From the NCBI GenBank assembly GCA_003151975.1, contig PLZD01000024.1, positions 1-64,000 of the forward strand: a stretch of 64,000 bases of DNA, read 5' to 3'. Both the position numbers and the translations under genes were made by a program. The notes beneath the pieces are model-generated. The model was given only the letters and a program-made list of their open reading frames with translations. It searched no databases and had not been told where the DNA came from. Every line of letters starts with the position of its first letter. Position 1 is the first letter of the stretch. The DNA comes from Elusimicrobiota bacterium. GTDB taxonomy: Bacteria > Elusimicrobiota > Elusimicrobia > UBA1565 > UBA9628. Below are positions 26,554-60,222 of the stretch, one piece after another.

Positions 26554-28371
26554 TCACAGCGCGCCGCCGTTCTTGAGGCAAGCCAAAGTCTTGAGATGCT
26601 CGTAAGACGCCTTGAGCGAGCCCTCGTCCAGCATCGTCCGGCACAGCTGCGAATCGCCGCAATCCTCGAAGTTCCCCGAGCTCCGCGCTCGGGCGTATCC
26701 GACGATGTCGGCGCAGTGCTGCCGCACGTCGTCGGGGGGCTCCGGGGCGTCGCAGTAGTCGGCCTCTGAGAAGCGCGTGTACGCCCCAAATTCGAAAAGG
26801 CACGACTCGCTCTGCTGAGGCAGCAGGAAGCGCTGCGTGAGCAAGCCGCAAAGACGGTCCGGCTCGTCGATGTGCGCGAAGATGATGGCGCAGATGTCCG
26901 CGCGCTCGGAACGCCTCCGGCCAAGCATGGCCTCCTTGCAGTACCACCGATAGTCTCCCTTGCGGTCGACCAGTTCGCGCAGCGCCATCATGCCGTAGGT
27001 GCGCATCAGGCACATCGACGGCAAGGAACCGGGATCGCCCTTGGAGCCCAGGACGCCGCACGAGGAGGCCTTATCCGAACGAAACGCGGCAGCGGCCTGG
27101 TAGTCGACCGCCAATTTGGCGACTTCTCCCGCCCCGTCGTCAAGGGCGTCCTGGGGCCGGGAGAGGCCCGCCGCGAACTTCCCGATCGAGAAGGAATTCA
27201 CGCAGGCCGGATCGGCGTCAGGCGTTGCGTCCGCCTCGGCGGCCGCGGGGGCCGCGCCGGCTTGCGGCGCGTAGCGGACCGGCTCGACCTTCGGCGCCGG
27301 CGCGGGCGGCCTGGCTTGGCGAACGATTGCCGCCGGCGCGGCCGGAGCCGGGGCCGCCGACGCTGGACCTAGCGCCTCCAGGAAGGCGATCAGCGCCCGT
27401 TTTTCTTCCTTAGAAAGCATGAGGGGCACGATGTCCCGGTCTTGCCGCGTGAGCTGCTGCGCGGGTCCCAGGTCTCCGCCGCGATCGTAGAAGTCGACGA
27501 CATCGGACAGGGCCGCCATGCTGCCGTCGTGCATGTATGGCGCCGTGAGGGCGACGTTGCGAAGTGAGGGCGTCTCGAACGGCCGCAGCGAATCGGGTCC
27601 GGCGTCCGGCCGGGGCTTCAGCCCGACGAAGTGGAATTCCTCGTCGGTCAGGAAAGGTCCGTTATGGCAGCGCAGGCAATGGGCCTTGCCCGCGAAGACC
27701 ACGAGCCCTTCCTTCTGTAAGGGCGTGAGCGCGGAGCGATCTTCGTCGAAGAGGTCGATCGGGGCCGGACCGACGCGCGCCGCCGACCTAATGAAAGCGG
27801 CGAAGGCTTTGCCCGCGTTGTCGGCCGTGACGCCCCTCCATCCGAAAACTCGCGAGAATCGCTTCGCATACGCCGGAGAGCTTTTGAGCAGGGCGGCCAA
27901 GTCGCGCGGCGGCATGTTCATCTCTTGCGGGTTGGCCGCCGCCTCCAGCGCGGCATTGGCGATCCCGTCGGCCCGCCCGTCCCAGAATAATCGCTGCCGG
28001 AAGCGGGCGTTGAGCAAGGTCGGAGTGTTCCGCTTAAGCTCCTTTCGCTCGGAGCCCCGGCCCCTGCCCAAGGTTCTGGGCAGGCCGTCGGTCCACGCCA
28101 GCGCCGGAACATGGCACGTCGAGCAGCTCACCGTCTTGTCGCGTGAGAGGCCGGCGTCGAAGAACATCGTCCGGCCAAGCTCGATTTCGTCTTCGGGGGA
28201 ATTCTCATCACGCGCGAAGGAAGCGAGGCGCAGGTCGAACCGGCTGATCAGGACGCGTCGCCATGCTGCCTCGACGGCAACGGAGTCAACCGCCACCTCG
28301 GCGGGCTGCGCTCCCCGCGCGAACCCAGTCACGCAGGCCAGGATCAGCCAGGACAACGGGACCGACGGCAA
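26554..28371 (-). CDS. Exported MauG/MbnH-type dihaem protein with Cys-rich C-terminal domain (copy A)
   Basis: 605 aa, TTG start at 28371 with AAAGG about 8 bases upstream. Signal peptide about 1-20. The dihaem peroxidase part (about 25-340) has two C-x-x-C-H haem sites, C-S-T-C-H and C-L-R-C-H, plus F-W-D-G-R and P-Y-M-H-D-G-S typical of the bacterial CcP/MauG superfamily. Some of these use hydrogen peroxide to oxidise Trp in a partner protein. An Ala/Pro linker leads to a Cys-rich domain (about 400-605) ending in the C-G-D-S-Q-L-C-R motif shared with other secreted proteins here. The length is roughly double that of a plain dihaem peroxidase because of this domain. Second gene of module A, after the FGE-like gene. 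Confidence 0.85.
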   Translation of the reverse strand: MPSVPLSWLILACVTGFARGAQPAEVAVDSVAVEAAWRRVLISRFDLRLASFARDENSPEDEIELGRTMFFDAGLSRDKTVSCSTCHVPALAWTDGLPRTLGRGRGSERKELKRNTPTLLNARFRQRLFWDGRADGIANAALEAAANPQEMNMPPRDLAALLKSSPAYAKRFSRVFGWRGVTADNAGKAFAAFIRSAARVGPAPIDLFDEDRSALTPLQKEGLVVFAGKAHCLRCHNGPFLTDEEFHFVGLKPRPDAGPDSLRPFETPSLRNVALTAPYMHDGSMAALSDVVDFYDRGGDLGPAQQLTRQDRDIVPLMLSKEEKRALIAFLEALGPASAAPAPAAPAAIVRQARPPAPAPKVEPVRYAPQAGAAPAAAEADATPDADPACVNSFSIGKFAAGLSRPQDALDDGAGEVAKLAVDYQAAAAFRSDKASSCGVLGSKGDPGSLPSMCLMRTYGMMALRELVDRKGDYRWYCKEAMLGRRRSERADICAIIFAHIDEPDRLCGLLTQRFLLPQQSESCLFEFGAYTRFSEADYCDAPEPPDDVRQHCADIVGYARARSSGNFEDCGDSQLCRTMLDEGSLKASYEHLKTLACLKNGGAL

Positions 28372-28374
28372 GAC

Positions 28375-29118
28375 TTAGCCTTTGGCTACTCGGAAGCCCA
28401 AATCCCACTTGCGCGTGGCGGGAGCCAGCGTGCGGCACGGCGTCACCAGCTTGCCGTCATCGCTCTTCCTGTAGTTTCCGCCGCCGACGTAAACGCGATC
28501 CCAGCCCGCGTCAACCCAGGCCGAGCCGTCCTTCGGGGCGCCGACGTAGGAAGGATGGGACCAGTCCTGCACCCACTCCCAAACTTTCCCGGGCATGTCG
28601 CAGAGTCCTTGCTTGGTCTTTTCCTGCTCGCTGGCGCACACCGGGCGCAACGCGGTCTGGTTGGTGCCCCAGGGATACTTCGAGCTCGCGCCGGCGCTGC
28701 GCGCGGCGTATTCCCATTCGGAGTCGCTGGGAAGGCGCCCTCCGACCCACTTGGCGAAGGCTGCCGCCTGGTTCCAGTCCACGCAAGTCACCGGCAAATC
28801 GTCTCCCTTAATATCGGAGCCGCACTGCGTGACCGGCGTGCATGCGCCGGCCGCAACACAGGCCGCGTACTGCTTCTGAGTCACGGGGGTCTTCGCCAGC
28901 GCGAAGGACTTGACCGAGACCGTGTGCACCGGCCGCGTCTCGCCCCACTGGTCGGTCCCCATGCGGAAGGTCCCCGCAGGAAGCTTCACCCATTCGATCG
29001 CCGCGTCCGCGGCGGGCGCCGCTTCGGCCTTGCGTTCCGGCCCGGCGGCGTTGGACATTAGAGGTACAAAAGAGACACTGAAGGAAAAAACTAAGATTCC
29101 GCGTGTGTTCATTTTCAT
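28375..29118 (-). CDS. Exported FGE/SUMF-fold protein, non-canonical active site (copy A)
   Basis: 247 aa, ATG 29118 after GGGGGA. Signal peptide about 1-25. The sulfatase-modifying-factor fold is recognised by F-R-M-G near the start, P-V-T near 75, W-E-Y-A-A-R, G-K-V-W-E-W-V-Q-D-W and the final D-L-G-F-R-V. The usual R-G-G-S-W is replaced by V-G-G-G-N-Y and the two catalytic Cys of true formylglycine-generating enzyme are not both present (one Cys, in T-P-C-R). It is therefore unlikely to be a genuine FGE; the four other Cys may form structural disulfides. It is always paired with a dihaem protein here, suggesting a partner or substrate. Confidence 0.8.
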   Translation of the reverse strand: MKMNTRGILVFSFSVSFVPLMSNAAGPERKAEAAPAADAAIEWVKLPAGTFRMGTDQWGETRPVHTVSVKSFALAKTPVTQKQYAACVAAGACTPVTQCGSDIKGDDLPVTCVDWNQAAAFAKWVGGRLPSDSEWEYAARSAGASSKYPWGTNQTALRPVCASEQEKTKQGLCDMPGKVWEWVQDWSHPSYVGAPKDGSAWVDAGWDRVYVGGGNYRKSDDGKLVTPCRTLAPATRKWDLGFRVAKG

Positions 29119-29139
29119 CGGTTCCCCCGCTGTGAGCTA

Positions 29140-29168
29140 AGTGTAGCTCCAATACCGCGAACTGTCAA
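29140..29168 (-). promoter_or_regulatory. Promoter of module A (FGE-like/dihaem)
   Basis: TTGACA (29163-29168), 17-bp spacer ending in ATTGGAGC, TACACT (29140-29145). The leader is about 15 bases with GGGGGA before ATG 29118. Nearly the same sequence precedes module B. Confidence 0.8.
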
Positions 29169-29178
29169 GGCTCGAGAA

Positions 29179-30993
29179 TTATCGCCTCGGCTTGAGGCAG
29201 GCGATGTCGCGCAGGCGCGACAAGGACTCTTGAATCGCCCCCGGGGCCGCCATGCCGCGGCAGAGCGCCGAGTCGCCGCAATCGTCGACGCGCCCCGACG
29301 CCTTCGCGCGGGCGAATCCCACGATGTCGTGGCATTCCTCCCGCACGAAGCGCGGCGGATCGGGGGCGTCGCAATAGTCGGGCTCTCGAAACCGGCTGTA
29401 GGCGGAGAAATGGAAGACGCAGGCGTCGGTCTCCCGCGGCGTGACGACGCCGCCCGAGGCCAGCAGAGCGCACAGGCGCGCGGGCTCGTCGATGTGCGCG
29501 AGGATCGCCGAGCATTCGGCCTTCCCGTAGTAAGGGAGCTCGTGCACGCGTATGCCGCATGCGTCGACGAAGCGCGGGCTGCGCGTGACGAGATTCCTAA
29601 TCTGCAGCATGCGCACGGCGTCTCGCCGGCATCTCCGAGCGGCCCACGAGCCCTCCGCCGCCGCCTTCGGCGCCAGGGCGTCGCACCGGGAGACGTCGTC
29701 CGCCCCGTAGGCGACGAGCGATTGATGGAGCACGATCAGCACCAGCAGTTCGCCTTCTCCCTCGTGGGCCGCGCCGGGCTTGAAATAATCCGAAATGAAT
29801 TTATCGAACGCGAAGGATTTCTCGCAGGCCCCGTCCTCCTCCGCTTCGGGCTCAGGGGAAGGAGCCGAGGGGCCTTGCAAGACCGTCTGCGCGGGGGCGT
29901 AGCGCTGCTCCTCGGGTGCGGGAGCCGGGGCGGGCTTCTCGGGCCGCGCCGGCCTCGCGACCGCCGGCGGGGCGGGCGGCGGAGCGGTCTCGCCCAACGA
30001 TCCCAGGAACGCGACGAGAGCCCTCTTCTCCTCCGCGGTGAGCTTGAGCGGCACGATGTCGGCGTCTTGCCCCGTGAGAGCCTGCCCGGCGCCCTGGTCG
30101 CCGCCGCGATCGTAGAATTCCACGACGTCCGTCAGCGTCGCGAGCGTTCCATTGTGCATGTACGGAGCGGTCGCGCCGAGATTGCGCAGCGGCGGCGTCA
30201 CGAACGTGCGGCCCGCGTCGGGGTCGGCGGCGCCGTTCGCCTTGAGTCCGATGAAATGCTCTTGGCCGTCCGACATGGACGGCCCGTTGTGGCAGCGCAG
30301 GCAGTGGGCCTTCCCGGTGAAGAGCACGAGCCCTTTCTTCTGCAGCGGGGTCAGCGCGGAACGATCGTCGGCGAATCTCTCGAAGGGCGAGGGATCGGCC
30401 CGGGGCACGGTCTCGACGAAAGCGGCGAACGCCTCGCCGACGAGGTCCGGGGCGACCGGCCTTCCGGGATACACCCGGGCAAACCACTTCGAGTACTTCG
30501 GCGAGAGGGCGATCTCTTGCGCAAGCAGCTCCGGCGGGACGTCCATTTCATCGGGGTTGGCCGCGGCGGTCAGCGCCGCCTCCGCGACGTTATTGGCGCG
30601 CCCGTCCCAGAAGAAGCTTTGACGCAAGCGGACGTTGAGAAGCGATATCGTGTTGCGCGAGAGCTCCTTGCGCGTGGCGCCGATGCCCTTGCCGCGCGCG
30701 CGGGGAAAGCCGTCCGTCCAGCCGTGGGACGGAACGTGGCAGGCAGCACAGCTCAGGCTCTTGTCCTTCGATAGTTCGGCATCGAAGAACAGCGCCCGGC
30801 CGAGGGCGACCTCATCGGCCGAGGGCTCGGGGCGCGCGAGGCCCGAGCCCGGCTTGAACGCGCTGATTTGAATCCGATGCCACGCCGCTTCGACCGCCGA
30901 CGAATCGACGGCGACTTCCGGAGGCGAACCGGCTCTCGCCAGCCCCCCGAGACTGAGGAGGGCTAGGCCCGCGGACAGAGCCCGGCCGAACAA
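29179..30993 (-). CDS. Exported MauG/MbnH-type dihaem protein with Cys-rich C-terminal domain (copy B)
   Basis: 604 aa, TTG 30993. Paralogue of 26554-28371 along its whole length: signal peptide about 1-21; haem sites C-A-A-C-H and C-L-R-C-H; P-Y-M-H-N-G (Asn instead of Asp); an Ala/Pro linker with R-Y-A-P; and the Cys-rich domain ending C-G-D-S-A-L-C-R. The periplasmic peroxidase or protein-oxidation role is as for copy A. The gene ends only 10 bases before the promoter of module A. Confidence 0.85.
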   Translation of the reverse strand: MFGRALSAGLALLSLGGLARAGSPPEVAVDSSAVEAAWHRIQISAFKPGSGLARPEPSADEVALGRALFFDAELSKDKSLSCAACHVPSHGWTDGFPRARGKGIGATRKELSRNTISLLNVRLRQSFFWDGRANNVAEAALTAAANPDEMDVPPELLAQEIALSPKYSKWFARVYPGRPVAPDLVGEAFAAFVETVPRADPSPFERFADDRSALTPLQKKGLVLFTGKAHCLRCHNGPSMSDGQEHFIGLKANGAADPDAGRTFVTPPLRNLGATAPYMHNGTLATLTDVVEFYDRGGDQGAGQALTGQDADIVPLKLTAEEKRALVAFLGSLGETAPPPAPPAVARPARPEKPAPAPAPEEQRYAPAQTVLQGPSAPSPEPEAEEDGACEKSFAFDKFISDYFKPGAAHEGEGELLVLIVLHQSLVAYGADDVSRCDALAPKAAAEGSWAARRCRRDAVRMLQIRNLVTRSPRFVDACGIRVHELPYYGKAECSAILAHIDEPARLCALLASGGVVTPRETDACVFHFSAYSRFREPDYCDAPDPPRFVREECHDIVGFARAKASGRVDDCGDSALCRGMAAPGAIQESLSRLRDIACLKPRR

Positions 30994-30996
30994 CGA

Positions 30997-31722
30997 TCAG
31001 CCTTTGACGATGCGGAATCCCAACTCGGGGCGGCGAGTGTCGGGCGCCAGGCGCCGGCACGGTGAGATGAGCTTGCCTTCCTTGTCGCGGAAATAAAAGC
31101 CGCCGCCGACGTAGACGCGATCCCAGCCCGCGTCGTTCCAGGCCGTGCCGTCCGCGGGAGCGCCGACGTAGCTGGGATGATACCAGTCCGCGACCCACTC
31201 CCAAACGGTTCCCGACATGTCGCAAAGCCCTTCCTTGGTCGCGGCCTTGCCGTTGGCGCAGACCTCGCGCGGCGTGACGTGATCGACTCCCCAGGGATAC
31301 TTCGAGCTGACGCCGGCGCCGCGCGCCGCGTATTCCCATTGGGCGTCGCTGGGGAGGCTCCCGCCGGCCCACTTCGCGAACGCGTCCGCCTGCTCCCAGC
31401 TCACGCAGGTCGCCGGCACGTTGTCGCCCGCGCGGTAGCCGTCGCATTCCTTGATCGGCGTGCAGGCTTTCGCTTCGACGCAGGCCCGGTACTGCTTATT
31501 GGTCACCGGAGTCTTGGCCATCGCGAACGACTTCACCGCGACCGTATGCACGGGCCGGGTGTCGCTCCATTGATCGGAGCCCATCTGAAATGATCCCGCC
31601 GGGAGCTTGACCCATTGGATCGCCGCGTCGGCCTTGCTGTCCGGTCCGGCGGCGTTGGACATTAACGGCGCAAAAGAGAGACTGACGGCACACAGCAGTA
31701 TTCGGCCCGCGTTTATTTTCAT
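30997..31722 (-). CDS. Exported FGE/SUMF-fold protein, non-canonical active site (copy B)
   Basis: 241 aa, ATG 31722 after GGGGGA, overlapping the TGA of the TPR-TP-methylase gene as ATGA. Signal peptide about 1-24. Close paralogue of 28375-29118, with the same replacement of R-G-G-S by V-G-G-G and a single Cys in S-P-C-R. Cysteine positions in the N-terminal half are shared, which supports structural disulfides. It has its own promoter inside the end of the preceding gene. Confidence 0.8.
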   Translation of the reverse strand: MKINAGRILLCAVSLSFAPLMSNAAGPDSKADAAIQWVKLPAGSFQMGSDQWSDTRPVHTVAVKSFAMAKTPVTNKQYRACVEAKACTPIKECDGYRAGDNVPATCVSWEQADAFAKWAGGSLPSDAQWEYAARGAGVSSKYPWGVDHVTPREVCANGKAATKEGLCDMSGTVWEWVADWYHPSYVGAPADGTAWNDAGWDRVYVGGGFYFRDKEGKLISPCRRLAPDTRRPELGFRIVKG

Positions 31723-33653
31723 CGTTTCCCCCGGTTTGCGCTAAGTGTAGCTCCAATTTCACGAACTGTCAAGACGCGAGACGGAACGTACAGGACGGCT
31801 CCGAGGTCCGCGCTCAGCAGCGGCTTCTTAAAATCCCGCAGCGCGTACGGCGCGACCTCCTGCTCCTTGTCCCCCGACCCCGCCAGGAGATACATCGTGT
31901 GCCCGGCCGGATAGCGGCGGGACAGCAGCTCGTAAAGCCGTTCGCGGTGTTCTGGCCCCGCGATGCAGTAGACGACCATCGGGTAGCGGGGCTCGACCAG
32001 ATCTTCATTGTCGTTGAGCCAGCACATGTCGAACACGCGCAGCCCCATCGGAGCGGCCTTCTCCCCGGGCATCGAGGAGCCCAGGGCCCACGAGATCTCC
32101 GTCAGAGAGACAGCGCCAAAGGAGTGGAACGAAATGTTTTTTTCCCGGCAGGCGGTCACCAAGTCGTTGGCGATGCGGCGATAGATGAAGGGATGGATGC
32201 GCGTGACGAAACCCGTCGGCCGGCCTTTCGTGAAGCCCGCGATGATGCGCCGCACGCGCCCCATCGCCGGCTCGCCCGGCACGCGGGTCACCGCGCGGAC
32301 CTCGCCGCGGAACAACCCCAAGAACTCGGAGACTTGAGGATCGCCGAGGTTGTTGTAGAGCACCTCGCACGACGCCAGCGCGTGAAGAATCTCGACGGTG
32401 ATCTGATACGGGTGGTGCAGGCCGATGCCGCAGAGGTAGAACTGGACCGCCTTTTGAATCGGAGGCGCCGGCGCGGCTAGGACGCGGGCGACCAAAGCGT
32501 AAAAATGCAAGCGCTCGCTGAATCGGTCTTCCGTGCCGACGGCGGCCGCGAGGAAATACTTCTCGGCTTTCCGATACTCCCCGCGGCGGCAGGCGACGTA
32601 TCCGCGCAGATAGTCGTCGTAGGGTGCTTCCACCGCGCCTTTCTCGACCTGCGCGAGGACCTCTTCGAACCGATTCTGCAAGGCGAGGACCTGCAGAAGC
32701 TCGAAGCGGGCCTGGACGTTTTCAGGCTCGAGCTTCAGCACGCGGCGCAAATCGTCTTCGGACTCTTTCAAGCGGCCGAGCACCAAGGAGAATCGCGCGC
32801 GCCGGGACAGGAGAGCCGCGTCGGCCGGGCTGCGCTCGACGGCTTTTTCCATTTCCGCCACCGCCTCCGGATAGAAGGCCTGGTCGAAATAGACGTTGGC
32901 CGCCTGGGCGTGCGGCTGGGCGGAGTCCGGCATCAACAGCGAGACGCGCGCCAAGTCCTTCAAGGCCTCGCGATAAAATCCGGCGCGGTTGTACACGTCG
33001 GCGCGCTGCGAAAACAACCACGGAGTCGGCTCCGTCTCGGCCGCCTTATTGAGGTCCGCTATGCTGCCGTTGAAATCCTGGACGCCCCGGCGCAGCACGC
33101 CGCGGATCGCGTGCAGAAAACCGGAAGACCCCGACGCCAAGGCCGCGTCGAGCAGCTTGATCCCTTCGCCGGGCGCCCCGCGCTGGCCTGCGACCAGGGC
33201 CAGCACGCCCAGCGCGCACTCGCGGGCTGCCGCGTGACCTAGGATCGGCTTGAGGTCGGCCTCGGCGCCCTCGCAATCCCCCTGCGTCAACTTATGAACG
33301 GCGCGCAGCAGACGCGCCCAGGGCCAACGCGCATCGAGCCGCACGGCGGCATCGAGATCCTCGCGCGCGGCTTCCCCCATACCGCCAAGCATGCGCGCCT
33401 CGCCCCGCCACGCCAAGCCGCACGCGTCGCCGGGCTCAAGCGCGACGGCGCGATCGAGGGCGGCCAGCGCGGGCTCCGCTTGGCCCAAGAACGCCAAGGC
33501 GCGGCCTTGAACGCGCAGGGCCCGAGCGTCCTGCGGTTTGGCCCTCCGGCAGCGGGAGAGAACCTCGCGCCAAGCCTTTTCTCCGCCGGCGGGCGCGCCG
33601 ATCAAGCCGGTCAGATACGACCGGGCGTCATCGAGAGCGCTCTCGCTCTTCAC
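31719..33653 (-). CDS. TPR protein fused to a TP-methylase domain
   Basis: 644 aa from GTG 33653 (GTGA overlap). Residues 1-390 are TPR units, including A-W-R-G-E-A-R-M. The methylase domain (about 400-644) opens with L-C-G-I-G-L-H-H-P-Y. The R-G-H-P motif has become R-I-H-P-F-I-Y, so the first Gly is lost, which may affect activity. R-Y-P-A-G-H is present. The last 20 residues are encoded by the module B promoter and look adventitious. Confidence 0.75.
   Translation of the reverse strand: MKSESALDDARSYLTGLIGAPAGGEKAWREVLSRCRRAKPQDARALRVQGRALAFLGQAEPALAALDRAVALEPGDACGLAWRGEARMLGGMGEAAREDLDAAVRLDARWPWARLLRAVHKLTQGDCEGAEADLKPILGHAAARECALGVLALVAGQRGAPGEGIKLLDAALASGSSGFLHAIRGVLRRGVQDFNGSIADLNKAAETEPTPWLFSQRADVYNRAGFYREALKDLARVSLLMPDSAQPHAQAANVYFDQAFYPEAVAEMEKAVERSPADAALLSRRARFSLVLGRLKESEDDLRRVLKLEPENVQARFELLQVLALQNRFEEVLAQVEKGAVEAPYDDYLRGYVACRRGEYRKAEKYFLAAAVGTEDRFSERLHFYALVARVLAAPAPPIQKAVQFYLCGIGLHHPYQITVEILHALASCEVLYNNLGDPQVSEFLGLFRGEVRAVTRVPGEPAMGRVRRIIAGFTKGRPTGFVTRIHPFIYRRIANDLVTACREKNISFHSFGAVSLTEISWALGSSMPGEKAAPMGLRVFDMCWLNDNEDLVEPRYPMVVYCIAGPEHRERLYELLSRRYPAGHTMYLLAGSGDKEQEVAPYALRDFKKPLLSADLGAVLYVPSRVLTVREIGATLSANRGKR
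31744..31772 (-). promoter_or_regulatory. Promoter of module B, embedded in coding sequence
   Basis: TTGACA (31767-31772), 17-bp spacer with ATTGGAGC, TACACT (31744-31749). It matches the module A promoter at most positions. It also encodes the last residues of the upstream protein. Confidence 0.8.
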
Positions 33654-36244
33654 GCGGCCCTTTCCCTTTTCGTTTTCGGCGCTTCCAGCGGCGGCACGTA
33701 GAGCATCAGGCTGGAGTGAATGTCGGGGAAGCGCTTTTCCAGATCGCCTAGACGGAGGACCGCCGGCGGCGAGTCGTACTTCGGGCCGAACATCCAGCAG
33801 CCGTGTCCGGCGGGATAGAAGCGCTCGAGGCTCCGGCGAAAGGCCTTGATCGCGGGTCCCGTGAGCCCGCTGTAGAAGCACGCCAGAAGCGGGAGACTCG
33901 TGTTGAGGTGCTTGGCCGCCTCGACGGCGGGCCGGTCGATGGCCTGGATGCCGCCGAAGTCGTCGCCGAGCCCCTTGCCCGTGTACGCGAGAAGGTGATC
34001 GATCGACGAGACGGCCCCGAAGGTCTCGTGCGGCATGCCGGTTTCCTTGCAGCGCCGGATGAGCTCGACGGCCAAGCCTCCGAAGATCAACGGATGGCCT
34101 CGAGTGACGAAGCCGACCGTGCGCCCCTTGTCGAGTTCCTTGAACATGCTGTTGGCCCACTTCGGCTCGTCCTGCCAGGCTTGGTAGGACGCGGGGCGTA
34201 TGTCCGAGCAGAACTCGGCGAGCAGGTCGCGGACTTCGGCTCCCGCGACGTTATTGAAAACGACGTCGCAGCGGCTGATCGCGTGCAGGACCTCGAGCGA
34301 GGCGGTGTACGGCGGGAAGATGCCCAGGCCGCAAAGATAAAGCATCGGCGGCTTCTGCTTGGCGTTTTTCATGGAATGCCTCTTTCTAAAGGAAGGGTCC
34401 ACCGCGCGCGAGGCGACCCAGTAGAGCCGCGCCCGCATCGAGAGATGGTCCTCTTCCGGGAGTTCCTTCATGAGCCGTCGGAAATCCGCTTCTCCGCAGC
34501 CCTGACGGCGGGCCTTGAAATCGAGGCAGCCCCTGCTAAACACGGCCTCAAGCCGCCCGCGCGCGGAGCCCTTACTGATGAGCTTGCGGATCTCAGCGGC
34601 CGCGGGCGCGCGCCGGCCGCGCTGCACGAGCAGGCGCAGGCGGGCCAAGCGCAGGGTCTCTTCCTCGGGCGCGAGACTGACCGCGCGGTCGAGGTCCCGC
34701 TGAGCGAGGGCAGGACGGTCGGTCAGAATGAAAAGTTCGGCTCTCTTGGCCAGCAGCCAAGGATTTCCTTCGGCGAGCTTGACCCCGCGGTCGAGATCGC
34801 TTTGAGCCTCCGGGTAATTTCTTCTTTGCAGATGGAACTGCGCCCGCCGCGCGTAAAGCCCGGCCCGCGGGCCGGCCGCGCGCAGGGCTTGGTCCATGTC
34901 CGAGAGCGCCTCGGCCACGTACCCCATGTCCGAAAGGATCTGGGCCCGCGCCTCGAGCGACTTCTCGCCGTCGTCGAGAAGCACCGCCGCGTCCGCTTCG
35001 CGTCTGGCCTCCTCGAGCCGGCCGCTCTCGCGAGCGGACATCGCGCGCTCGACGTGAGCGGCGGCCGCGGCTTTCGGCTCCGCGCCCGCCCCAAGCTCCC
35101 GCACGGTCTCGGCGCGCTTTTGGACGGCGAACGCGTCGCCCGGCTTCAACGCCGCGGCCAGGTCCAAGTCCTCCAAGGCCTGGCGCGGGCGCCCGGCCGC
35201 GAGCCTAGCAGCGCCGCGCCGCGCGTAGCCCAGCTCGTAGTCCGGAGACAGCGCGAGCCCTTCGTCGAAGTTCCTCTGCGCGGCGGAGAGATCCCCTTTG
35301 AGCCGCAGCATCTCCCCGCGCCAGATCCGGAACCAGCCGCAGTCGCCTCGCAGCCAGATCGCTCGGTCGATCGCCTCAAAAGCGGGCGCCTTCAAGCCCG
35401 CGTCGAGGCGCGCGCGCGACAGATAAGCCCAGGCCCAAGCGCAATCGGGACGCAGCGCGACGGCGGTCTCAAGATTCTCGAGCCCACCCCGGAACGCGTG
35501 CATCCAGTAGGCTTTGGGATCGCCGTTTGGAACGGAGCCCAACGCGTTGGCCAGGACTCCGATGTCTTCGTCGAGAATGATCGCGGACTCGGCATCGGCC
35601 AGGAACCCTTCGAGATCCTTGAGCTCGAGCTTGGCGCGGGCCCTTAACCGATGAAGCCAGCCCTGCGCCGGCTCGAGGCGGATCGCTTCGTCGAGGCTCG
35701 CGATGGCCTTGCGAGGCGTTTTGAGTCCGGAGAGCGCCAGCGCCCGGCCGACATGCGCCGGAACGCAGCCGGCATCGAGTTTCAGCGCCGCGTCGAAGTC
35801 GGAGAGCGCGTTCCGCCACGAGGGAAGCCGCCCGAGCCCCCGCCACGCCCGCCAAGACGAGACTTTCGGCTCGAGCTTGACGGCGCGATCGATGTCCGCC
35901 GAAGACAGCGACCCGCGAATGCCCGGTCCCAGACGCGCTTCCCAGCGCCAAGCGTAAGCCGCCGCCAGCCGGGGATCGCGAGCCAAAGCCTGATCGAGGC
36001 CCCAGAGCGCGTCGTCGCGCGAGCCTATGAGCCGGCGCGCCCGCGCCGTCTCCGCCATGAGCCTCTCGGACGACGGCAAGGACTGCGCGTCGGTCAGGGC
36101 CCGTCGATACGCCGCGCCGCGCATGATTCCATGCCGCCGGAAACCGTAGCGCGAGGATCTTCCGAGGTGGGTGAGCCGCTCCAGACGCTCGACGACCGAC
36201 GCGCTCCCCTCCCGAGCGAAGACGGCCTCAAGAGGATCGGTCAT
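33650..36244 (-). CDS. Large TPR protein fused to a TP-methylase domain
   Basis: 864 aa, ATG 36244. It begins with D-P-L-E-A-V-F and G-R-S-S-R-Y-G-F-R-R-H, an N-terminal signature shared with the TPR proteins at 39517 and 49461. Residues 50-600 hold about fifteen TPR units, many with W-R-G. The C-terminal domain (about 620-864) opens L-C-G-L-G-I-F-P-P-Y, then V-T-R-G-H-P-L-I-F-G-G and F-Y-P-A-G-H, the best-kept TP-methylase motifs of the fusions. SAM-dependent methylation of a TPR-bound protein is a plausible inference. No signal peptide. Confidence 0.8.
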   Translation of the reverse strand: MTDPLEAVFAREGSASVVERLERLTHLGRSSRYGFRRHGIMRGAAYRRALTDAQSLPSSERLMAETARARRLIGSRDDALWGLDQALARDPRLAAAYAWRWEARLGPGIRGSLSSADIDRAVKLEPKVSSWRAWRGLGRLPSWRNALSDFDAALKLDAGCVPAHVGRALALSGLKTPRKAIASLDEAIRLEPAQGWLHRLRARAKLELKDLEGFLADAESAIILDEDIGVLANALGSVPNGDPKAYWMHAFRGGLENLETAVALRPDCAWAWAYLSRARLDAGLKAPAFEAIDRAIWLRGDCGWFRIWRGEMLRLKGDLSAAQRNFDEGLALSPDYELGYARRGAARLAAGRPRQALEDLDLAAALKPGDAFAVQKRAETVRELGAGAEPKAAAAAHVERAMSARESGRLEEARREADAAVLLDDGEKSLEARAQILSDMGYVAEALSDMDQALRAAGPRAGLYARRAQFHLQRRNYPEAQSDLDRGVKLAEGNPWLLAKRAELFILTDRPALAQRDLDRAVSLAPEEETLRLARLRLLVQRGRRAPAAAEIRKLISKGSARGRLEAVFSRGCLDFKARRQGCGEADFRRLMKELPEEDHLSMRARLYWVASRAVDPSFRKRHSMKNAKQKPPMLYLCGLGIFPPYTASLEVLHAISRCDVVFNNVAGAEVRDLLAEFCSDIRPASYQAWQDEPKWANSMFKELDKGRTVGFVTRGHPLIFGGLAVELIRRCKETGMPHETFGAVSSIDHLLAYTGKGLGDDFGGIQAIDRPAVEAAKHLNTSLPLLACFYSGLTGPAIKAFRRSLERFYPAGHGCWMFGPKYDSPPAVLRLGDLEKRFPDIHSSLMLYVPPLEAPKTKRERAA

Positions 36245-36285: not shown

Positions 36286-37548
36286 CTACCTGGGCTTCGG
36301 CTTCGAGTGAGGCCCGCCGGGAGCGATCACGGCGCCCGGGGCTTTCAATTCTCGAAGCCGTTCGCCCAGCTCAGCGATCTTCTCCTCCCGCGTGTCGACC
36401 TTGTCGGCCAGGTCTCCCTTCGAGGCCGTTTCGATCTGCATCAGCCGCGCGTGGGCCTCATCCAGCGTGGCGGTCACGGTTTTTTCACTCCCCGTGATGA
36501 AGGTCGTGGAGTCTTGTTTGCGCTTGTTGGTTTCGCTCGCGGCATTGGCGTTGGTGGTCGGGTAGTGGACCTTCAAATCGCAATAGCCCGCCACGACCTT
36601 CTGCGCGATCGGGTCGCAGCTGCGAATTCCGCCGCCCGCCATGGCGCGGCAGAACGGACGGTCGCCGCACAGGGCGAGGTTCTTCGCCGCGTGCGACTTG
36701 TGGAAGGCCAGATAATCGGGGCATGACTCGCTGGTCTCCTTGCCTCGGGCGTCCCGGGCGCAGTCCTGCCTGCCGTTGAGGATGTTGATTAAGGAATTGC
36801 AGCCCTGCACTCCCTTCTGACCCATGAGATCGGAAGTCAATTTCCCGCAAGTACTCGCAGGGTCGGTGAAATTAGCCAGGACGCCGCAGGCACGGGGGAT
36901 GGCCTCCGCCAGGTTTCCTTTCATGTTGGGCTCGGGATCGCGCCGGAAGAACTCCGAGCAGGCCGTGACGGCGTCGGGGTTGTGGCTGATGAGCGCCCGG
37001 ATCATGTTGTTCTCCAAAAACATATACCAACATTGATTCTTGGGCAACTTCGACATGGTCGTCTCATCATCCTTATCTTGATCCAAGTTCGCTAGGAGGT
37101 CGCACCGTGACCCGCTCCCCGCGGCCACGGCCGCGCACCTATAATATCCGGTGAGCTGAGAGATCAACGCCCGCTTGCGCTGCTGGAGCTCGGGCTGCTG
37201 CTGGTAGAATGTGAAGGGCAACGCCTTCGCCGCCGCGGCTTCCTTTATGATCGAATCCGGCGTGGTCGCGGACCGGCACGACGCCTCGTCACGAGGCGCC
37301 GCCGGCGGCCGGCTCAACGCGGCGGAAGTCTCCATTTCCTTGATCAGGGTCTCGGATTCGGCCAGCAAATGGTCCACTTTCTCGAAGAGAGCGCCTGCGG
37401 CGCCGCTGTTGGTCGCAACCGGCGACGGCGGCGGCGCCATCAGCGGGTCGGAGGCCTGCGCGGCCAAGGAGATGAATAGGATGGACACGAGACTCAAGAA
37501 CAGCGGCTTTCGGAGCGGCTGGTTTGAGGAATATGGGAAGAAAATCAT
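36286..37548 (-). CDS. Exported Cys-rich protein (C-G-x4-C-R-x-M family)
   Basis: 420 aa. ATG 37548 is required for the signal peptide (about 1-32, with R-K before the hydrophobic core) and lies 7 bases after the -10 box, so the transcript looks leaderless. The mature protein has about 16 Cys in helical units; the motif C-G-D-R-P-F-C-R-A-M near residue 300 is shared with the C-terminal domain of the dihaem proteins. The last 80 residues form a coiled coil. It heads the block leading to the TP-methylase and dihaem genes, and may be their exported partner or substrate. Confidence 0.7.
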   Translation of the reverse strand: MIFFPYSSNQPLRKPLFLSLVSILFISLAAQASDPLMAPPPSPVATNSGAAGALFEKVDHLLAESETLIKEMETSAALSRPPAAPRDEASCRSATTPDSIIKEAAAAKALPFTFYQQQPELQQRKRALISQLTGYYRCAAVAAGSGSRCDLLANLDQDKDDETTMSKLPKNQCWYMFLENNMIRALISHNPDAVTACSEFFRRDPEPNMKGNLAEAIPRACGVLANFTDPASTCGKLTSDLMGQKGVQGCNSLINILNGRQDCARDARGKETSESCPDYLAFHKSHAAKNLALCGDRPFCRAMAGGGIRSCDPIAQKVVAGYCDLKVHYPTTNANAASETNKRKQDSTTFITGSEKTVTATLDEAHARLMQIETASKGDLADKVDTREEKIAELGERLRELKAPGAVIAPGGPHSKPKPR

Positions 37549-42615: not shown

Positions 42616-42642
42616 TGAGAAATGAAGAAAGGGGGAATCTCA

Positions 42643-48351: not shown

Positions 48352-49416
48352 TTATTGGCTGGCGAGCCGGGTGTCGGGGACGGCCTGAATCTCCCGGACC
48401 GACGCTTCTAGCTCGGGGGATTTCTTGATGAAGGCTTTGGCCGCGTCCATGAAGTTGGCGCGCTCGGATTTGGGCAGCTCGATGAGGTGCAGCCCGCTCG
48501 CCGTTAGGGCCTTTAGATTGCGCCCTTCGAGATCCACGGAGAGTTTGCGTTCGTCCGTGGCCAACTCCTCGACCCACTCGCCCAGGAGCCGCCGCTGCTC
48601 GGCGGTCAAGCCGGCCAGGAACTTCTCGTTGGCGAGGATGGAGGTGACGTACATGCGATGGCGCGTGAGGTTGGCGTAGGAAATTCCTTTGACCAGCTCC
48701 GGATGGTCGCGCTGGACCAGGGCCAGCCGGTTCACTTCGGTCTCCTCGAGATCGAGAGCCCCCGACAGAACGGCGGCGATCGGCCGTTCTCTCACTTCCG
48801 GCCCGACGTCGACGCGTTTGGCGCCCAACTCTCCGAGGAAGGCCGCGGAGGCGGTCTCCCGCCTCACCTTCAAGCCCTTCAGATCGCTCAACCGATTGAG
48901 CGGCTTGCTGCCGACCAAAATCCGGTAGCCGCCGCTGTAAGTGAAAGCGTACCCCTTGAGGCGGCCCTGCGACGATTCGGACACGCCGTTCAAAAGCTTC
49001 TTGCCGACGGGGCCGTTGAAGACGGCTTCGGCATGATCGTAATTCCTAAAGACGAACGGGGCGTCAAAAATCGGCACTCCCGCCCGCGCGGCGGAAAGCT
49101 GGCTCATGTCGGCGCCGCCATTGAGCACTTGCTGATAGGCGGCGGCGTCAAGCTGGGTGTCGGGGGCCTTGCTGGCGATGAATTCGACTTTCAGCGCGCC
49201 GCCCGATTTCTTTTCGAGCTTCTGGGCGTAGGTGTCGAGAAGCTGGTCGAAAAATGAACTGCCCCGATCGTGCGCGACGATCCAGCGAATGACCTTCGGC
49301 TTTTCTGCTGTCGAGGCCCGAGCAGCGCTCGGCGCCGCGAGGATCACGGAGAGCGGCGCCAGCAGCGCCGCGGAAAGGATAAAACTGGCGGTCACGCCTC
49401 TTGATTTCTCGTTCAT
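48352..49416 (-). CDS. TRAP-type periplasmic solute-binding protein (DctP family)
   Basis: 354 aa, ATG 49416, 8 bases after the -10 box with no Shine-Dalgarno. Signal peptide about 1-34. DctP pattern: G-G-A-D-M-S-Q-L, A-P-F-V-F-R, then L-K-G-L-K-V-R with the carboxylate-binding Arg kept, unlike the copy at 42643. No transporter membrane subunits nearby. Convergent with the Cys-rich gene; the 22-base gap has no clear terminator. Confidence 0.8.
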   Translation of the reverse strand: MNEKSRGVTASFILSAALLAPLSVILAAPSAARASTAEKPKVIRWIVAHDRGSSFFDQLLDTYAQKLEKKSGGALKVEFIASKAPDTQLDAAAYQQVLNGGADMSQLSAARAGVPIFDAPFVFRNYDHAEAVFNGPVGKKLLNGVSESSQGRLKGYAFTYSGGYRILVGSKPLNRLSDLKGLKVRRETASAAFLGELGAKRVDVGPEVRERPIAAVLSGALDLEETEVNRLALVQRDHPELVKGISYANLTRHRMYVTSILANEKFLAGLTAEQRRLLGEWVEELATDERKLSVDLEGRNLKALTASGLHLIELPKSERANFMDAAKAFIKKSPELEASVREIQAVPDTRLASQ

Positions 49417-52930: not shown

Positions 52931-52936
52931 GTTTCG

Positions 52937-52992: not shown

Positions 52993-55308
52993 CTACCCCT
53001 CGTGCCGCTTCCCGGCCGTCTCGATGGTCAGCGCCGCCTTTAAGTCCTCGCGCGCGACGTTCAAATCTCCCAACGCCGCCGCGGCCTTCGCGCGGACCAC
53101 GAGCGCCTCCGATTGCCGCGGGTTGGCGGCCAGCGCCTTTTCCGCGTCGGCGCGCGCGCCCGCGTTGTCGCCCAGCTGGAGCCTCAGCTTGGCGCGCAGG
53201 ATGTGGACGCGGTCCGCGACCCAGCCGCGCGCCAGCTCCGCGTCGAAGCCGGCCAGCAGCGCCGCGATCTTCGATTCCTCGGCCCGGCCCGCACCAATGG
53301 ACTCATTAAGCTTGACCGCCAGGTCGAGGTCGGCCTTCGCCTCGGGCAATCGTCCCAAATGCCGCCGCGCTTCGCCGCGCAGGGCGTAGACCCACGGCCA
53401 ACGCGAGCCGGATTCGATCGCCGCGGAGAGCGCCGCTTCCGCGCGCGTCACGTCGCCGGCCTTCAACGCGCGCTCCCCCTCCCGGAACGGACTCTCCTTG
53501 GACGCCCGAACCCGCCGCCGCCCGGGCTTCAAATCGAGCGCGCCCACCACCGCGAGATCTTTCAAAAGGCGGAACACCTGCCCCTCGACGATGTCGAGCG
53601 GCAGCGGCAGGCGGGCGAGCAGGATATCCTTGATCTCTCCAACGCTGCGCTTGCCGTCGACGAGGCCCAGCATGTCGATGTACGACGAGGGCAGGATCCG
53701 CTTCGGGTTCACGGCCTCGCTGGAGGACGGCTTGATCACGTCGAGCCTTTGAATCGGGCGCAGGCACCCGTTCGCGGAACTCGGCAAGAAGGTCAACGAA
53801 AGCTTTCTCTTGAGCCGCCACTTCGGCACGAGCGCGTCGTCGAGCTTCTCGAGCTTCACCAAACCCTCGGCGCGCTTGATGTTTGCTTTCACGGGACCCT
53901 TCTTCAAAAAGCCCGTCTCCACGATGGACAGAATCTGCCGCGACCACTTCTTGAGCTCGAGCTTGGTGCCCTCCCACTGCCACGAGTGCTCAACGCCGCT
54001 GGAACCAAAGAGCAGGCTCTGCGACGTGTAGGAGCGCTCGAAATGGTAGTTCACGCCGGCCGCGATGGCGATGAAGGCGCCCTTGTCGGAAAGATCCAAC
54101 GGCGTCCCTTTCGCCAAGACATCCTTCGCCTCGGCCCACCACTTGCGCGCGTTGGGGTCGTGGTGATACCAGTAGCGCACGAGGGCGAGGAACGACGACG
54201 AGACCTCTTTGCAGTAGCGGCCGTAATCGCGCCACAGCTCGCGCCGCAGCCCCGCGTCTTTTTCCCGCCACCAGGTGTTGAGCGTGTAGGCCGCGCGGTG
54301 CGCCGAGAGGTGCGCCATCATGACGCCCGACGAGAGCAGCGGATCGATGAAGAACGCCGCGTCCCCGGCCGCCAACCAACCATCACCGCAAGCGGTCCCG
54401 TTCATATACGACCAATCGCCCAGCGTGAAGAAATCCTTGTCGGGGAAAGCCGGATCGACGCCGCGCATCACTTCCGCGTTCTTGAGGAGCGGCCGGATCT
54501 CGGCGCAGTCCTTCAGCGCGCCATGGAAAAACTCGCGCATGTCCTTGACGCCCTTTTCTTTCACATAAGCCGCCTTCGACACCAAGCCGACCGAGACCAT
54601 GTCTTTGGACAAGGGGATGTACCAGAACCAGCCTTCCGGTCGCGAGCAGACGAAGATCTTGGTCTTGTCGGGATGGCCTTGGTACTCGAACTTCCATTTC
54701 GCGTTCTTGAAATAGGCGTAGGCCGCGACGTTCTTGAGGTCCTCGCGATAACGCCTGGTTCGCCGCGCGGCGGAGAGGAAGCCGTTCTGGCCGCTGCAGT
54801 CGGCAAGCCACTCGCAAAGGATTTTTTTCTTCTCTCCGCCCGCGCTTTCCACCACGAGGCCGATGATCTTGCCGCCCTTTTCGATCGGCTCCAGGGCGCG
54901 GCCGGAAAAAACCTCCACGCCGATGGACTTGGCGTGGTCGAGGAGGATCTGGTCGTAGCGCGAGCGCAGGACCTGCCAGGAGAACTCCGTGTCGAGCGCG
55001 CGGCCGTACTTCTCGACCATTTCCAGGTTGAGATTATTAAAGTCGGCGTCCCACGGCTTGCGGTCCCGGCCCCAGACGAAGACGACGCCGATCTTGCGCG
55101 GGAAACCGCCCGCGTTGACCTTGTCGAACACGCCCATCTCTTTCAATACCGGGATGGAGCCCGGCAGCAGCGACTCGCCGACGTGGTGGCGCGGGAACGG
55201 GGCTTTCTCGATGACGAGGATTCTCTTCTCCGGGTTGTATTTCTTGACGAGCGTAGCCAGCGTCGAGCCCGCGGGGCCGCCGCCGACGACGACGAGGTCG
55301 TACCTCAC
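52993..55308 (-). CDS. Flavin-dependent halogenase-like protein with PqqD-like domain and C-terminal TPRs
   Basis: 771 aa from GTG 55308 (GTGA overlap). Residues 1-440 form an FAD enzyme: V-V-V-G-G-G-P-A-G-S-T at 6-16, H-H-V-G-E-S-L-L-P at 41-49, W227-F-W-Y-I-P232 (the W-x-W-x-I-P signature of flavin-dependent halogenases), and G-D-A-A-F-F-I-D-P near 315. Residues about 540-593 resemble PqqD, with L-V-D-G-K-R-S-V-G-E-I and a final helix; PqqD-like domains often bind leader peptides. The last 160 residues are TPRs. Together these suggest a tailoring enzyme acting on a carrier- or peptide-bound substrate. A reductase or hydroxylase of the same fold cannot be excluded. Last gene of the operon entering from the right edge. 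Confidence 0.75.
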   Translation of the reverse strand: MRYDLVVVGGGPAGSTLATLVKKYNPEKRILVIEKAPFPRHHVGESLLPGSIPVLKEMGVFDKVNAGGFPRKIGVVFVWGRDRKPWDADFNNLNLEMVEKYGRALDTEFSWQVLRSRYDQILLDHAKSIGVEVFSGRALEPIEKGGKIIGLVVESAGGEKKKILCEWLADCSGQNGFLSAARRTRRYREDLKNVAAYAYFKNAKWKFEYQGHPDKTKIFVCSRPEGWFWYIPLSKDMVSVGLVSKAAYVKEKGVKDMREFFHGALKDCAEIRPLLKNAEVMRGVDPAFPDKDFFTLGDWSYMNGTACGDGWLAAGDAAFFIDPLLSSGVMMAHLSAHRAAYTLNTWWREKDAGLRRELWRDYGRYCKEVSSSFLALVRYWYHHDPNARKWWAEAKDVLAKGTPLDLSDKGAFIAIAAGVNYHFERSYTSQSLLFGSSGVEHSWQWEGTKLELKKWSRQILSIVETGFLKKGPVKANIKRAEGLVKLEKLDDALVPKWRLKRKLSLTFLPSSANGCLRPIQRLDVIKPSSSEAVNPKRILPSSYIDMLGLVDGKRSVGEIKDILLARLPLPLDIVEGQVFRLLKDLAVVGALDLKPGRRRVRASKESPFREGERALKAGDVTRAEAALSAAIESGSRWPWVYALRGEARRHLGRLPEAKADLDLAVKLNESIGAGRAEESKIAALLAGFDAELARGWVADRVHILRAKLRLQLGDNAGARADAEKALAANPRQSEALVVRAKAAAALGDLNVAREDLKAALTIETAGKRHEG

Positions 55309-57317
55309 GCGCGCCTCGCCTGCTCTCTGAGCCACAACGCCGGCGCGCAGCCCGGGTCGAGCGTCTCGTCGAGCGCGCGGCTGGCCTCTTCGATCGCGCC
55401 CGCGGCGTCGCCGGTGCGCAGTTTGAGCCAGCCGCGGATCAGGAAAGTCTGTATGTCGCGCCGGCCGCGGGTCTCGCGCTCGAGCACGGACAGCGCCTTG
55501 GCGAAATCTCCGTTCGCGAGCGCCCGCTTCGCGCTCCGCGAGCAGCGGCGCAGCAAGTTGTCCATGGCGAAGAAAGAGCCCGGATCACCCAGTCCCTGCA
55601 AGGTCTCGACGGCGCCGCCGTCCACCCGGCGCGCTCCGACTTGCCGCACGAGCAAGGCGACGGAATTGCGAGGATTGAGCGCGAGCGCGCGGGAAAGAGA
55701 GCGCGCCGCGTCGTTCTTCTGTCCCAGGCGGCCCTCGAGCCAACCTTTCACGGCCCAAGCCTCGTCGGAACCCGACGCGCCGTTGCCGAGCTGACGCGAG
55801 AGCGCCTGGCGCGCGCCGGACCAATCGCCGAGGCGCGCCTTGGCTTTCCACAGCCACGCGTCGAGCCAATGATCCTGCGGGTGCAGCTCCAACGCCGCCT
55901 CGAAGCTCTCCGCCGCGTCGCGAAAGCGTCCCAGCGCGAAGAGCGCTTGGCCGCGCCAAGCCAACGCCGGGGCGCAATGGCCTTGCAGCTTGAGCGAGCG
56001 CTCCAAGGACTTGAGCGCGGCTCGCGCGTCCCCGAGCTTCAAAAGGCAAAGACCTCGACCGGCGTGCGCCCAGCTCAGGTCCGGGCTCTTTTTCAAGGCG
56101 CGGTCGAATTCCTCGAGCGCCGTCGGCCAATCGCCCAAACGCCGCAAGGTCTCGCCGCGCCAGACCCGCGCCCATGGATCGGCCGGCGCGAGCGTGAGCG
56201 CCGCGTCGAGATCGGACAGAGCCCGCTGGTAGTTCTGCAGCAAGAGATCGGTTTGGCCGCGCCAGGCCCACGCCCAGGCCGCTTTCGGAAATTTTGTGAT
56301 GTACCGGTCGAGTTCCCGCAGAGAGCGCAGGGCGGCGGGGTTGGGATGAGACATGCTGATGCGGTGCTCGATCCAGACGCCGCTGCGGTCGATGTCGGCG
56401 GCGGCTTTGAGCGCGTCCGCGGCCTCCTTCCAATTCCCCATCTCCATGTGCGACCGTGCCAACGGATAAAGCGTCGTCGGGTAGTAAGGGTTGAGCGCGC
56501 GGGCGCGCTCCAATAGCGGCAGGGCTTTTTTCCATTGGCCGAGCTCGGCGTACGACACGCCCAGCCATGAATAGCCCCGGTCGTAATCGGGCAGCGGCGG
56601 GATTGAGCGTTCGAGGTCGGACAGCGCCTTGGGCGTTTTCTTGAGCACGAACATCGCGCGCCCGCGCCAAGACAGAGCGAATCCGGATTCAGGCGCGAGC
56701 TTCAGGGCCTTATCCAAGTCCTTGACCAAGGAGCGGTCGCGCAGATCGGCCTTGGCTCGCGCCATAAACAAGAGCGGCAGCTCGCTCTTCGGATCGAGTT
56801 TCGAGGCGCGCGCGAACTCCGCGACGGAACCGCGAAAGTCGGCCTGATACCAGCGGCAGATCCCGCGCAGGACATACGGCCAGCTCCAGCGCGGCTCGAG
56901 TGCGATGGCGCGATCGAAGCTCCGGATCGCGCGCGTGTAGCGCCGATGCATCTCGTGGACCATACCGGAAAAAAGATGCGCCCAGGCGCAGGGCGAAGGC
57001 TGATCGGCCGCGCGTTCGAAGTCCGCGAGCGATTCCTCGCTCAGGCGAAGCGAGCCCCAGTAGCGCTCGTGTTTAGTGAGTCCTCGCAAGACGAGCTGTC
57101 TCGAGAGCGCGCTCTCCCGGGGATGTTTTCCGGGCGGCGCCCCCCCGGGGCCAAGCCGGAGCTTGCGTCCCATGTCGAGCAGACCCTCTTCGCCGGCGAG
57201 ATTGTTCTGCCGGTAGAAAAGAAGCGCGTGACTGATGTAGCCGCGCCAGACGAGAGCCGCCGGATGCTCGCTTTCGGGGCCGAGCAGGACGTCGAGCCGC
57301 TCAGGAGCGGACCGCAT
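55305..57317 (-). CDS. TPR (WRG-type) protein
   Basis: 670 aa, ATG 57317 after GGGAGAGG, overlapping the upstream gene by 17 bases. About 18 helical repeats, many with L-x-W-R-G and A-W-A-W-R-G-Q. No signal peptide, no enzyme motif. Directly coupled to the halogenase-like gene, so it may be a dedicated partner. Confidence 0.75.
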   Translation of the reverse strand: MRSAPERLDVLLGPESEHPAALVWRGYISHALLFYRQNNLAGEEGLLDMGRKLRLGPGGAPPGKHPRESALSRQLVLRGLTKHERYWGSLRLSEESLADFERAADQPSPCAWAHLFSGMVHEMHRRYTRAIRSFDRAIALEPRWSWPYVLRGICRWYQADFRGSVAEFARASKLDPKSELPLLFMARAKADLRDRSLVKDLDKALKLAPESGFALSWRGRAMFVLKKTPKALSDLERSIPPLPDYDRGYSWLGVSYAELGQWKKALPLLERARALNPYYPTTLYPLARSHMEMGNWKEAADALKAAADIDRSGVWIEHRISMSHPNPAALRSLRELDRYITKFPKAAWAWAWRGQTDLLLQNYQRALSDLDAALTLAPADPWARVWRGETLRRLGDWPTALEEFDRALKKSPDLSWAHAGRGLCLLKLGDARAALKSLERSLKLQGHCAPALAWRGQALFALGRFRDAAESFEAALELHPQDHWLDAWLWKAKARLGDWSGARQALSRQLGNGASGSDEAWAVKGWLEGRLGQKNDAARSLSRALALNPRNSVALLVRQVGARRVDGGAVETLQGLGDPGSFFAMDNLLRRCSRSAKRALANGDFAKALSVLERETRGRRDIQTFLIRGWLKLRTGDAAGAIEEASRALDETLDPGCAPALWLREQARRA

Positions 57318-59370: not shown

Positions 59371-59382
59371 ACCGAATACTAT

Positions 59383-60222
59383 CTAATTTGGCCGCGTCCC
59401 GTTCAAGGGCTCGAGCGGGGCGCGGAGCATCTTCCACTCGTCTGCCTTGAGAGTAAGCGTCGGGAAGACGTCGTCGCAAAAGGACTTCACCGCCGCGCGG
59501 CCGGGCTCCTCGCAGGATTTCTCTCCTTTGAACAAGGCCTCGCACATCAGGTCGTATTTTTGGCAGCGCGCGGGATCTCCGGCCTTGAGCGCGGCCAGGG
59601 CCGCGGCTTTCATCCGGCACTCGCCCTGCAGTTTCTTGAGCGCCACGAGCCCGCAAGCCTCATCGCCTAGGAGATAATTGAAATAGCCGCGCTTTGCGAT
59701 CTCGGGATGCTTGGGCCATTCCTGACGCCCGCTCTTGTAAATGGCGCGAGCGGCCTCGGCGAAATCCTCGGGCGAGATCCCCTTCTCGCCGTAGAGCATG
59801 CGGCGCGCGTAGGGCACGAGCTCCTCCAACGGCCGGTCCTCGACCAGAGCCTTGAGCAAAAGATAGCCCGCCGCGCGCGATGTGCACACTCCGTACTCAT
59901 AGGTGAAGTGAATCTTGCCGTCGCTCTTGACGTACGTGTATTTCTTCTCCGGCGCGCCCTCCTTCGAGAGTTTCCCGCGCGGCTTGGGCCCGCCGGGAAA
60001 GTAATCGCAGAGATCGTCATCTTTGCTGACGACCTCCATGCAGGTCGCGTAATCGTAGAGCCCCTGGCGCGAGGCGGGACCGTATTGATGCAGGACCATC
60101 TTCTCCGGCGTGATCCAGCGCAGGCAGTAATCGCGCTTCTCTATAACGCTTAATTTGTCCGGCGCGGTCTCGGCGTGCGCTCCCGCGAGGGCCCAAAACA
60201 AACAGAGCGTTGCGATCTTCAT
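59383..60222 (-). CDS. Exported Cys-containing protein, distant member of the Cys-rich family
   Basis: 279 aa, ATG 60222 (ATGA overlap). Signal peptide about 1-17. About 11 Cys; near residue 230 the order C-Q-K-Y-D-L-M-C-E matches C-G-x4-C-R with Q for G and E for R. Lone exported protein inside an operon of cytoplasmic TPR proteins. Function unknown. Confidence 0.65.
   Translation of the reverse strand: MKIATLCLFWALAGAHAETAPDKLSVIEKRDYCLRWITPEKMVLHQYGPASRQGLYDYATCMEVVSKDDDLCDYFPGGPKPRGKLSKEGAPEKKYTYVKSDGKIHFTYEYGVCTSRAAGYLLLKALVEDRPLEELVPYARRMLYGEKGISPEDFAEAARAIYKSGRQEWPKHPEIAKRGYFNYLLGDEACGLVALKKLQGECRMKAAALAALKAGDPARCQKYDLMCEALFKGEKSCEEPGRAAVKSFCDDVFPTLTLKADEWKMLRAPLEPLNGTRPN

Follow-up and report, generated by a model that had tools for sequence, protein, structure and literature searches.

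Eight genes for a Cys-rich protein domain (hereafter the Cys domain) lie in a 64,000-nucleotide (nt) stretch of DNA from an Elusimicrobiota bacterium, positions 1 to 64,000 of contig PLZD01000024.1 in assembly GCA_003151975.1, which we refer to as the window. We find that the domain represents an exported, Cys-rich family named in neither Pfam nor NCBIfam, and that its main association is with HxsA, HxsB, and HxsD of the His-Xaa-Ser (Hxs) system, its link to heme being secondary. The explanation we lean toward is that the Cys domain is an extracytoplasmic, disulfide-stapled component of the Hxs system that most likely receives, holds, or displays the exported product, and that in one branch of Elusimicrobiota it is a docking domain or partner for a MauG-type enzyme. 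The Hxs system occurs widely among uncultured bacteria; to our knowledge, its product is uncharacterized.

All eight reading frames named in a preliminary description of the window were confirmed (genes are named here by their lower coordinate). That description defined the family by the motif C-G-x4-C-R-x-M. In a six-frame translation of the window, the strict motif has five matches, all inside named genes. As the copies in 37684 (CGKSLMCRRIM) and 38717 (CGESLMCRQIM) carry an extra residue, we write the motif as C-G-x4-C-R-x(1,2)-M, which is found seven times, only in named genes, and never in 60 codon shuffles. Residue shuffling of the seven motif proteins likewise predicts 0.0003 motifs compared to the 7 observed.

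Three of the genes encode, as first described, a fusion in which the Cys domain follows a MauG/MbnH-type diheme enzyme, with Pfam matches to CCP_MauG (PF03150) at E values from 9e-45 to 2e-38: 26554 (26554–28371, minus strand; enzyme ~28200–27352, Cys domain 27213–26569, motif CGDSQLCRTM at 26661–26632), 29179 (29179–30993, minus strand; enzyme ~30822–29989, Cys domain 29835–29182, motif CGDSALCRGM at 29280–29251), and 45214 (45214–47295, plus strand; enzyme ~45346–46188, Cys domain 46393–46977, motif CGSDYLCRAM at 46882–46911). The domain stands alone in 36286 (36286–37548, minus strand; exported, with a charged C-terminal tail; domain 37284–36571, motif CGDRPFCRAM at 36669–36640), 37684 (37684–38733, plus strand; exported; domain 37879–38574, motif ~38476–38508), 38717 (38717–39520, plus strand; exported; domain 38804–39490, motif ~39398–39430), and 47292 (47292–48329, plus strand; domain 47472–48110, motif CGDDPICRAM at 48012–48041). 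By pairwise BLAST, most pairs among six of the copies are significant (~1e-4 to 1e-10), and the 45214 domain shows weak similarity to the other window copies. The same comparison detects no similarity between 59383 (59383–60222, minus strand) and the other window Cys domains; this divergent relative, with 10 Cys in its domain, joins the family only via a profile iterated over relatives.

Searching 341 Elusimicrobiota genomes with a profile of the seven window domains found members in 29 of them; the genome to which the window belongs has eight, of which seven lie in the window itself and one on contig 57. With relatives added to the profile, the family was found in 81 of the 341. The motif serves as a definition for the window's branch. 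It does not extend to the phylum: the Hxs-linked branch has for the most part lost C-G...R-x-M, and what defines the family across the phylum is a set of about 14 paired cysteines. In our searches, the domain was covered by no Pfam or NCBIfam family, and neither the family nor its fold appears to have a name.

The cysteines come and go together. Among 47 sequences, four pairs of Cys columns covary with a phi of 1.00. When 57 further, unseen sequences were added, these four pairs held or nearly held, while the assignment of the four outer cysteines did not, and our first assignment of 64–247 and 241–270 was replaced by 64–270 and 241–247. In the joint alignment of 104 sequences, mutual best partners exist for all 14 Cys columns, giving seven pairs (47292 numbering): 64–270, 93–258, 104–121, 145–165, 177–195, 211–223, and 241–247. 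The last of these is the C-G-x4-C motif itself and, since its cysteines hardly vary, is the least certain together with C64–C270. On a tree of Cys changes, 18 of 29 change branches are common to both members of a pair, compared to 12 shared changes over 84 other pairs, the seven pairs having been partly chosen on the same data used to test them. Of 34 proteins whose start is clean, 32 have an even number of cysteines. Two of the seven pairs are absent from 59383, each lost as a whole pair. Stapling of the domain by about seven disulfides is well supported, and the covariation yields a predicted cystine map.

AlphaFold models of a window domain (38717, model m0e8284da5cd8; pLDDT 84, pTM 0.81) and of an Hxs-linked relative (pLDDT 88, pTM 0.75) are almost wholly helical. 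Foldseek returned no solved structure at E < 0.3 for either model, a sequence search against solved structures gave no match for the Cys domain, and Pfam gave no TPR/Sel1-type match over cut-off in the Cys domains. The preliminary description had proposed a disulfide-stapled helical repeat. The two helical models and the covarying cysteines agree with the proposal insofar as the chain is made up of successive helices joined by cystines, but there is no regular sequence repeat. An N-terminal hydrophobic segment is found in 93 of the 104 Cys proteins, in keeping with the export noted earlier. Given these segments and the disulfides, we infer that the domain lies outside the cytoplasm, either secreted or held by a single N-terminal membrane helix.

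The association of the family with the Hxs system is well supported by gene content and gene order. HxsB (TIGR03978 over cut-off) is present in 90 of the 341 genomes, and 77 of these also carry the Cys family (Fisher p 3e-57). Where both genes are on one contig, the median gap between them is 566 nt. In genomes outside profile building, 54 of 73 Cys copies are less than 2 kb from HxsB, compared to approximately 0.4% expected for random position. We read 104 Cys copies in detail within fetched stretches and classed them by their neighbors: 69 have a same-strand HxsD/HxsB neighbor, many with overlapping ends, six are fused to a MauG-type domain, five adjoin one, and 24 have neither an Hxs nor a MauG gene next door. 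The Cys gene typically either separates HxsB from HxsA or immediately precedes HxsD, and the gaps are short or the genes overlap. At one such locus (L049), the neighbors are an HxsD over its curated cut-off, an HxsB scoring 516 bits against a cut-off of 370, and an HxsC-like protein below cut-off. Beyond Elusimicrobiota, HxsB and HxsA have a homologue of the Cys gene next to them in three Omnitrophota, one Azambacteria, and one Schekmanbacteria (E 2e-8); a Moranbacteria candidate fits by position and cysteine spacing only.

HxsA is a small exported peptide with His-Gly-Ser (HGS) repeats, encoded by its own gene separate from the Cys gene. For 67 Elusimicrobiota copies the fetched stretch contains a same-strand HxsA, and in 44 of these the two genes are no more than 100 nt apart; over all sets, 32 Cys copies have no HxsA in the fetched stretch. 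As TIGR03979 found no canonical HxsA over cut-off, the Cys protein itself suggested itself as the Hxs precursor, an idea that was dropped when a search for HxS runs found a separate HxsA beside the Cys gene. At L083, L084, L085, L086, L088, and L090, the Cys gene adjoins HxsB and no same-strand HxsA repeat peptide is recognizable in the fetched stretch; these loci may use a variant precursor. In the window's own genome, contig 57 carries a Cys-HxsD-HxsB-HxsA set, and the window's contig, beyond the window, carries HxsA and two HxsB genes at ~79.4–83.3 kb. This HxsA (L055:15430-15891, contig 27, ~79.4–79.9 kb) closes, after the HGS repeats, with the Cys-rich tail ...HGSHCRGGWCCPRC, which contains a single Trp. 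In a one-contig genome (G204), Hxs genes, Cys genes, TPR proteins, and a halogenase-like gene are spread across ~45 kb.

The diheme enzyme joined to the Cys domain was compared in an alignment of the three window fusions and five relatives. Both CxxCH heme sites, the tryptophan of FWDGR, and a Tyr in an FY.RGGD-type stretch are invariant in all eight. This Tyr aligns with a Tyr of 6e1c and with the Met of bacterial peroxidases, and Tyr, not Met, is predicted at the axial-ligand position of the second heme. The structure 6e1c, a 'di-heme enzyme' that we take to be MbnH, is the closest solved relative of the window diheme domain in a sequence search of the Protein Data Bank (2.7e-39). The window domains score 168–194 bits against the MauG equivalog TIGR03791 (cut-off 443.85) and 154–180 bits against the MbnH family TIGR04039 (cut-off 362.85), and because these scores are far below the curated cut-offs, the domains are equivalogs of neither. 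They also remain below the cut-off of TIGR03981 (103–121 bits against 340).

Within the window's genome family, PF03150 matches comprise an ordinary peroxidase group (187–203 bits) and a lower-scoring MauG-type group. In the latter, all eight assessable genes are fused to, or directly 5′ of, a Cys gene. A ninth gene is interrupted by the end of its contig, and the tenth match is a truncated peroxidase-like fragment. The fusion is found in G000, G202, G209, and G215, and in G200 an unfused MauG gene overlaps a Cys gene in two instances. A syntenic stretch in G209 retains the same fusion gene, the stand-alone Cys gene, two DctP proteins, and a TPR protein; in the window, the 45214 fusion gene and the 47292 Cys gene overlap by 4 nt. 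Fusion or pairing with MauG is a branch seen in this one family of Elusimicrobiota genomes. The link to heme oxidation proposed earlier is real as a link to a diheme enzyme, as the fusions and overlapping pairs attest, but it is not the main association, which is with HxsA/B/D.

Taken together, we favor a scheme in which HxsB would act as a cytoplasmic radical S-adenosylmethionine (radical-SAM) maturase, with HxsD, HxsB, and HxsA as the usual genetic partners of the Cys domain, and the exported Hxs product would most likely be received, held, or displayed by the Cys domain. In the family of the window's genome, the domain would be the docking domain or obligate partner of the MauG/MbnH-type enzyme and would thereby recruit a periplasmic oxidase to its own binding partner. 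Gene position and fusion suggest both the binding of HxsA or its product and the action of the fused enzyme on the bound partner, of which oxidation would be the outcome. A bolder version, which we put forward tentatively and consider rather doubtful, is that a seven-disulfide helical receptor, overlooked in Hxs systems of several phyla, captures the exported His-Gly-Ser peptide and in Elusimicrobiota is wired to a MauG-type oxidase, so that a single peptide would be modified initially within the cell by radical-SAM chemistry and afterward outside by high-valent heme chemistry.

Several observations weigh against the favored scheme. The window itself contains no HxsA, HxsB, or HxsD, which lie ~16–20 kb beyond its end. 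Thirteen HxsB-bearing genomes of the 341 searched have no Cys match and no Cys relative was found at the Hxs loci of Myxococcota and Deltaproteobacteria, which means that the Cys gene is not needed for every Hxs system. In G200 (72% complete), no HxsB was found and the MauG pairs are in neighborhoods without Hxs genes, suggesting that MauG-Cys can stand apart from Hxs.

The main rival explanation, which we consider unlikely despite a good precedent in gene layout, makes the Cys protein the substrate: an aromatic residue would be oxidized by the MauG-type partner, perhaps with further modification by HxsB, to give a protein-derived cofactor as in the six-disulfide tryptophan tryptophylquinone subunit of methylamine dehydrogenase or in CorA/MbnP. 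Known MauG-type genes do adjoin the genes of their substrates, as in CorA-CorB (PMC3912023) and in MauG with the six-disulfide beta subunit (PMC7876137), and this enzyme-substrate layout matches both G200 and the 45214–47292 pair. However, among the 12 MauG-linked domains no Trp or Tyr reaches 60% conservation; the single Tyr that is well conserved in the family as a whole falls short of that level in this set. A fusion of substrate to enzyme would also be unusual, and Hxs loci already have a peptide in HxsA.

Less probable still is a housekeeping role, in which a structural envelope protein or a thiol-disulfide exchange factor merely travels with the cluster. Most neighbors (TPR proteins, DUF4932, solute-binding proteins) are of unknown function, and the 24 copies without an Hxs or MauG gene next door would fit such a role, whereas the fusions to an enzyme and a linkage that is almost exclusive in several phyla would not, and strictly paired cysteines speak against a redox-active pair. 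It is very improbable that the Cys protein, rather than HxsA, is the precursor that HxsB modifies, for instance by forming thioether cross-links at the cysteines: its gene is directly beside HxsD/HxsB, often with overlapping ends, and HxsB resembles the thioether-forming QhpD family (TIGR03906, 8e-30), but HxS repeats are absent (0.64 per 1000 residues), a separate HxsA is present alongside, and, as the cysteines form pairs among themselves and their count is even, none is left for thioethers, which largely refutes such cross-links.

As a conserved extracytoplasmic partner with a predicted cystine map, the Cys protein offers a means of purifying the Hxs product, and the MauG fusions point to a second chemical step and a testable substrate.

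Other genes of the window surround these loci. Two exported FGE-sulfatase-fold proteins alternate with two MauG-Cys fusion genes: one (28375–29118, minus strand) is encoded between 26554 and 29179, and the second (30997–31722, minus strand) directly upstream of 29179. Tetrapyrrole-methylase-fold domains, mostly fused to TPR repeats, occur at 33650–36244, 31719–34160, 22548–24305, and 25848–26924, all on the minus strand; two of the proteins were tested and match PF00590 (E 2e-13 and 5e-11), and the others were assigned by similarity. They could be small-molecule methylases or borosin-type peptide N-methyltransferases, and a sequence search with one of the domains found no solved relative. The product of 52993–55335 (minus strand) resembles flavin-dependent halogenases, contains TPR repeats and the WxWxIP motif (as WFWYIP), and is also weakly similar to a peptidyl tryptophan dihydroxylase (7ctq); in G204 and G215, its relatives are encoded next to Cys genes. 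A series of DUF4932 paralogues extends over 7478–23394 and 40827–42500 and includes a multi-domain frame of 1924 aa at 17620–23394. TRAP-type DctP solute-binding proteins are encoded at 42622–43728 (plus strand) and 48352–49416 (minus strand), one being followed by a TPR protein; G209 keeps both next to its MauG-Cys pair, and no transporter is obvious.

Among known systems, the Cys gene is embedded in the Hxs gene set (HxsA, HxsB TIGR03978, HxsC TIGR03977, and HxsD TIGR03976), for which the NCBIfam models consulted here describe no Cys-rich member; NCBIfam gives nothing convincing in the Cys proteins. Hxs enzymes are mentioned only as annotated families in PMC9062424. As NCBI links TIGR03981, the His-Xaa-Ser system-associated MauG-like protein, to Hxs systems, the pairing of MauG with Hxs is already known; the window enzymes are not of that family and are fused to the Cys domain. 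With MauG, MbnH, and CorB, the window domains have in common the two CxxCH sites, a bridging-type Trp in FWDGR, and Tyr in place of the peroxidase Met, but unlike these enzymes they carry the Cys domain at the C-terminus. The beta subunit of methylamine dehydrogenase is also a small exported protein, with six disulfides, that is matured by a MauG-type enzyme (PMC7876137), whereas the Cys domain has no conserved Trp pair and no match to solved structures. The GDNF/GAS1 domain (PF02351) is likewise helical and Cys-rich, with a sub-threshold match in one protein (E 0.36), far below cut-off. What is new here is therefore a component and a fusion within two known settings, the Hxs system and the MauG-type diheme enzymes.

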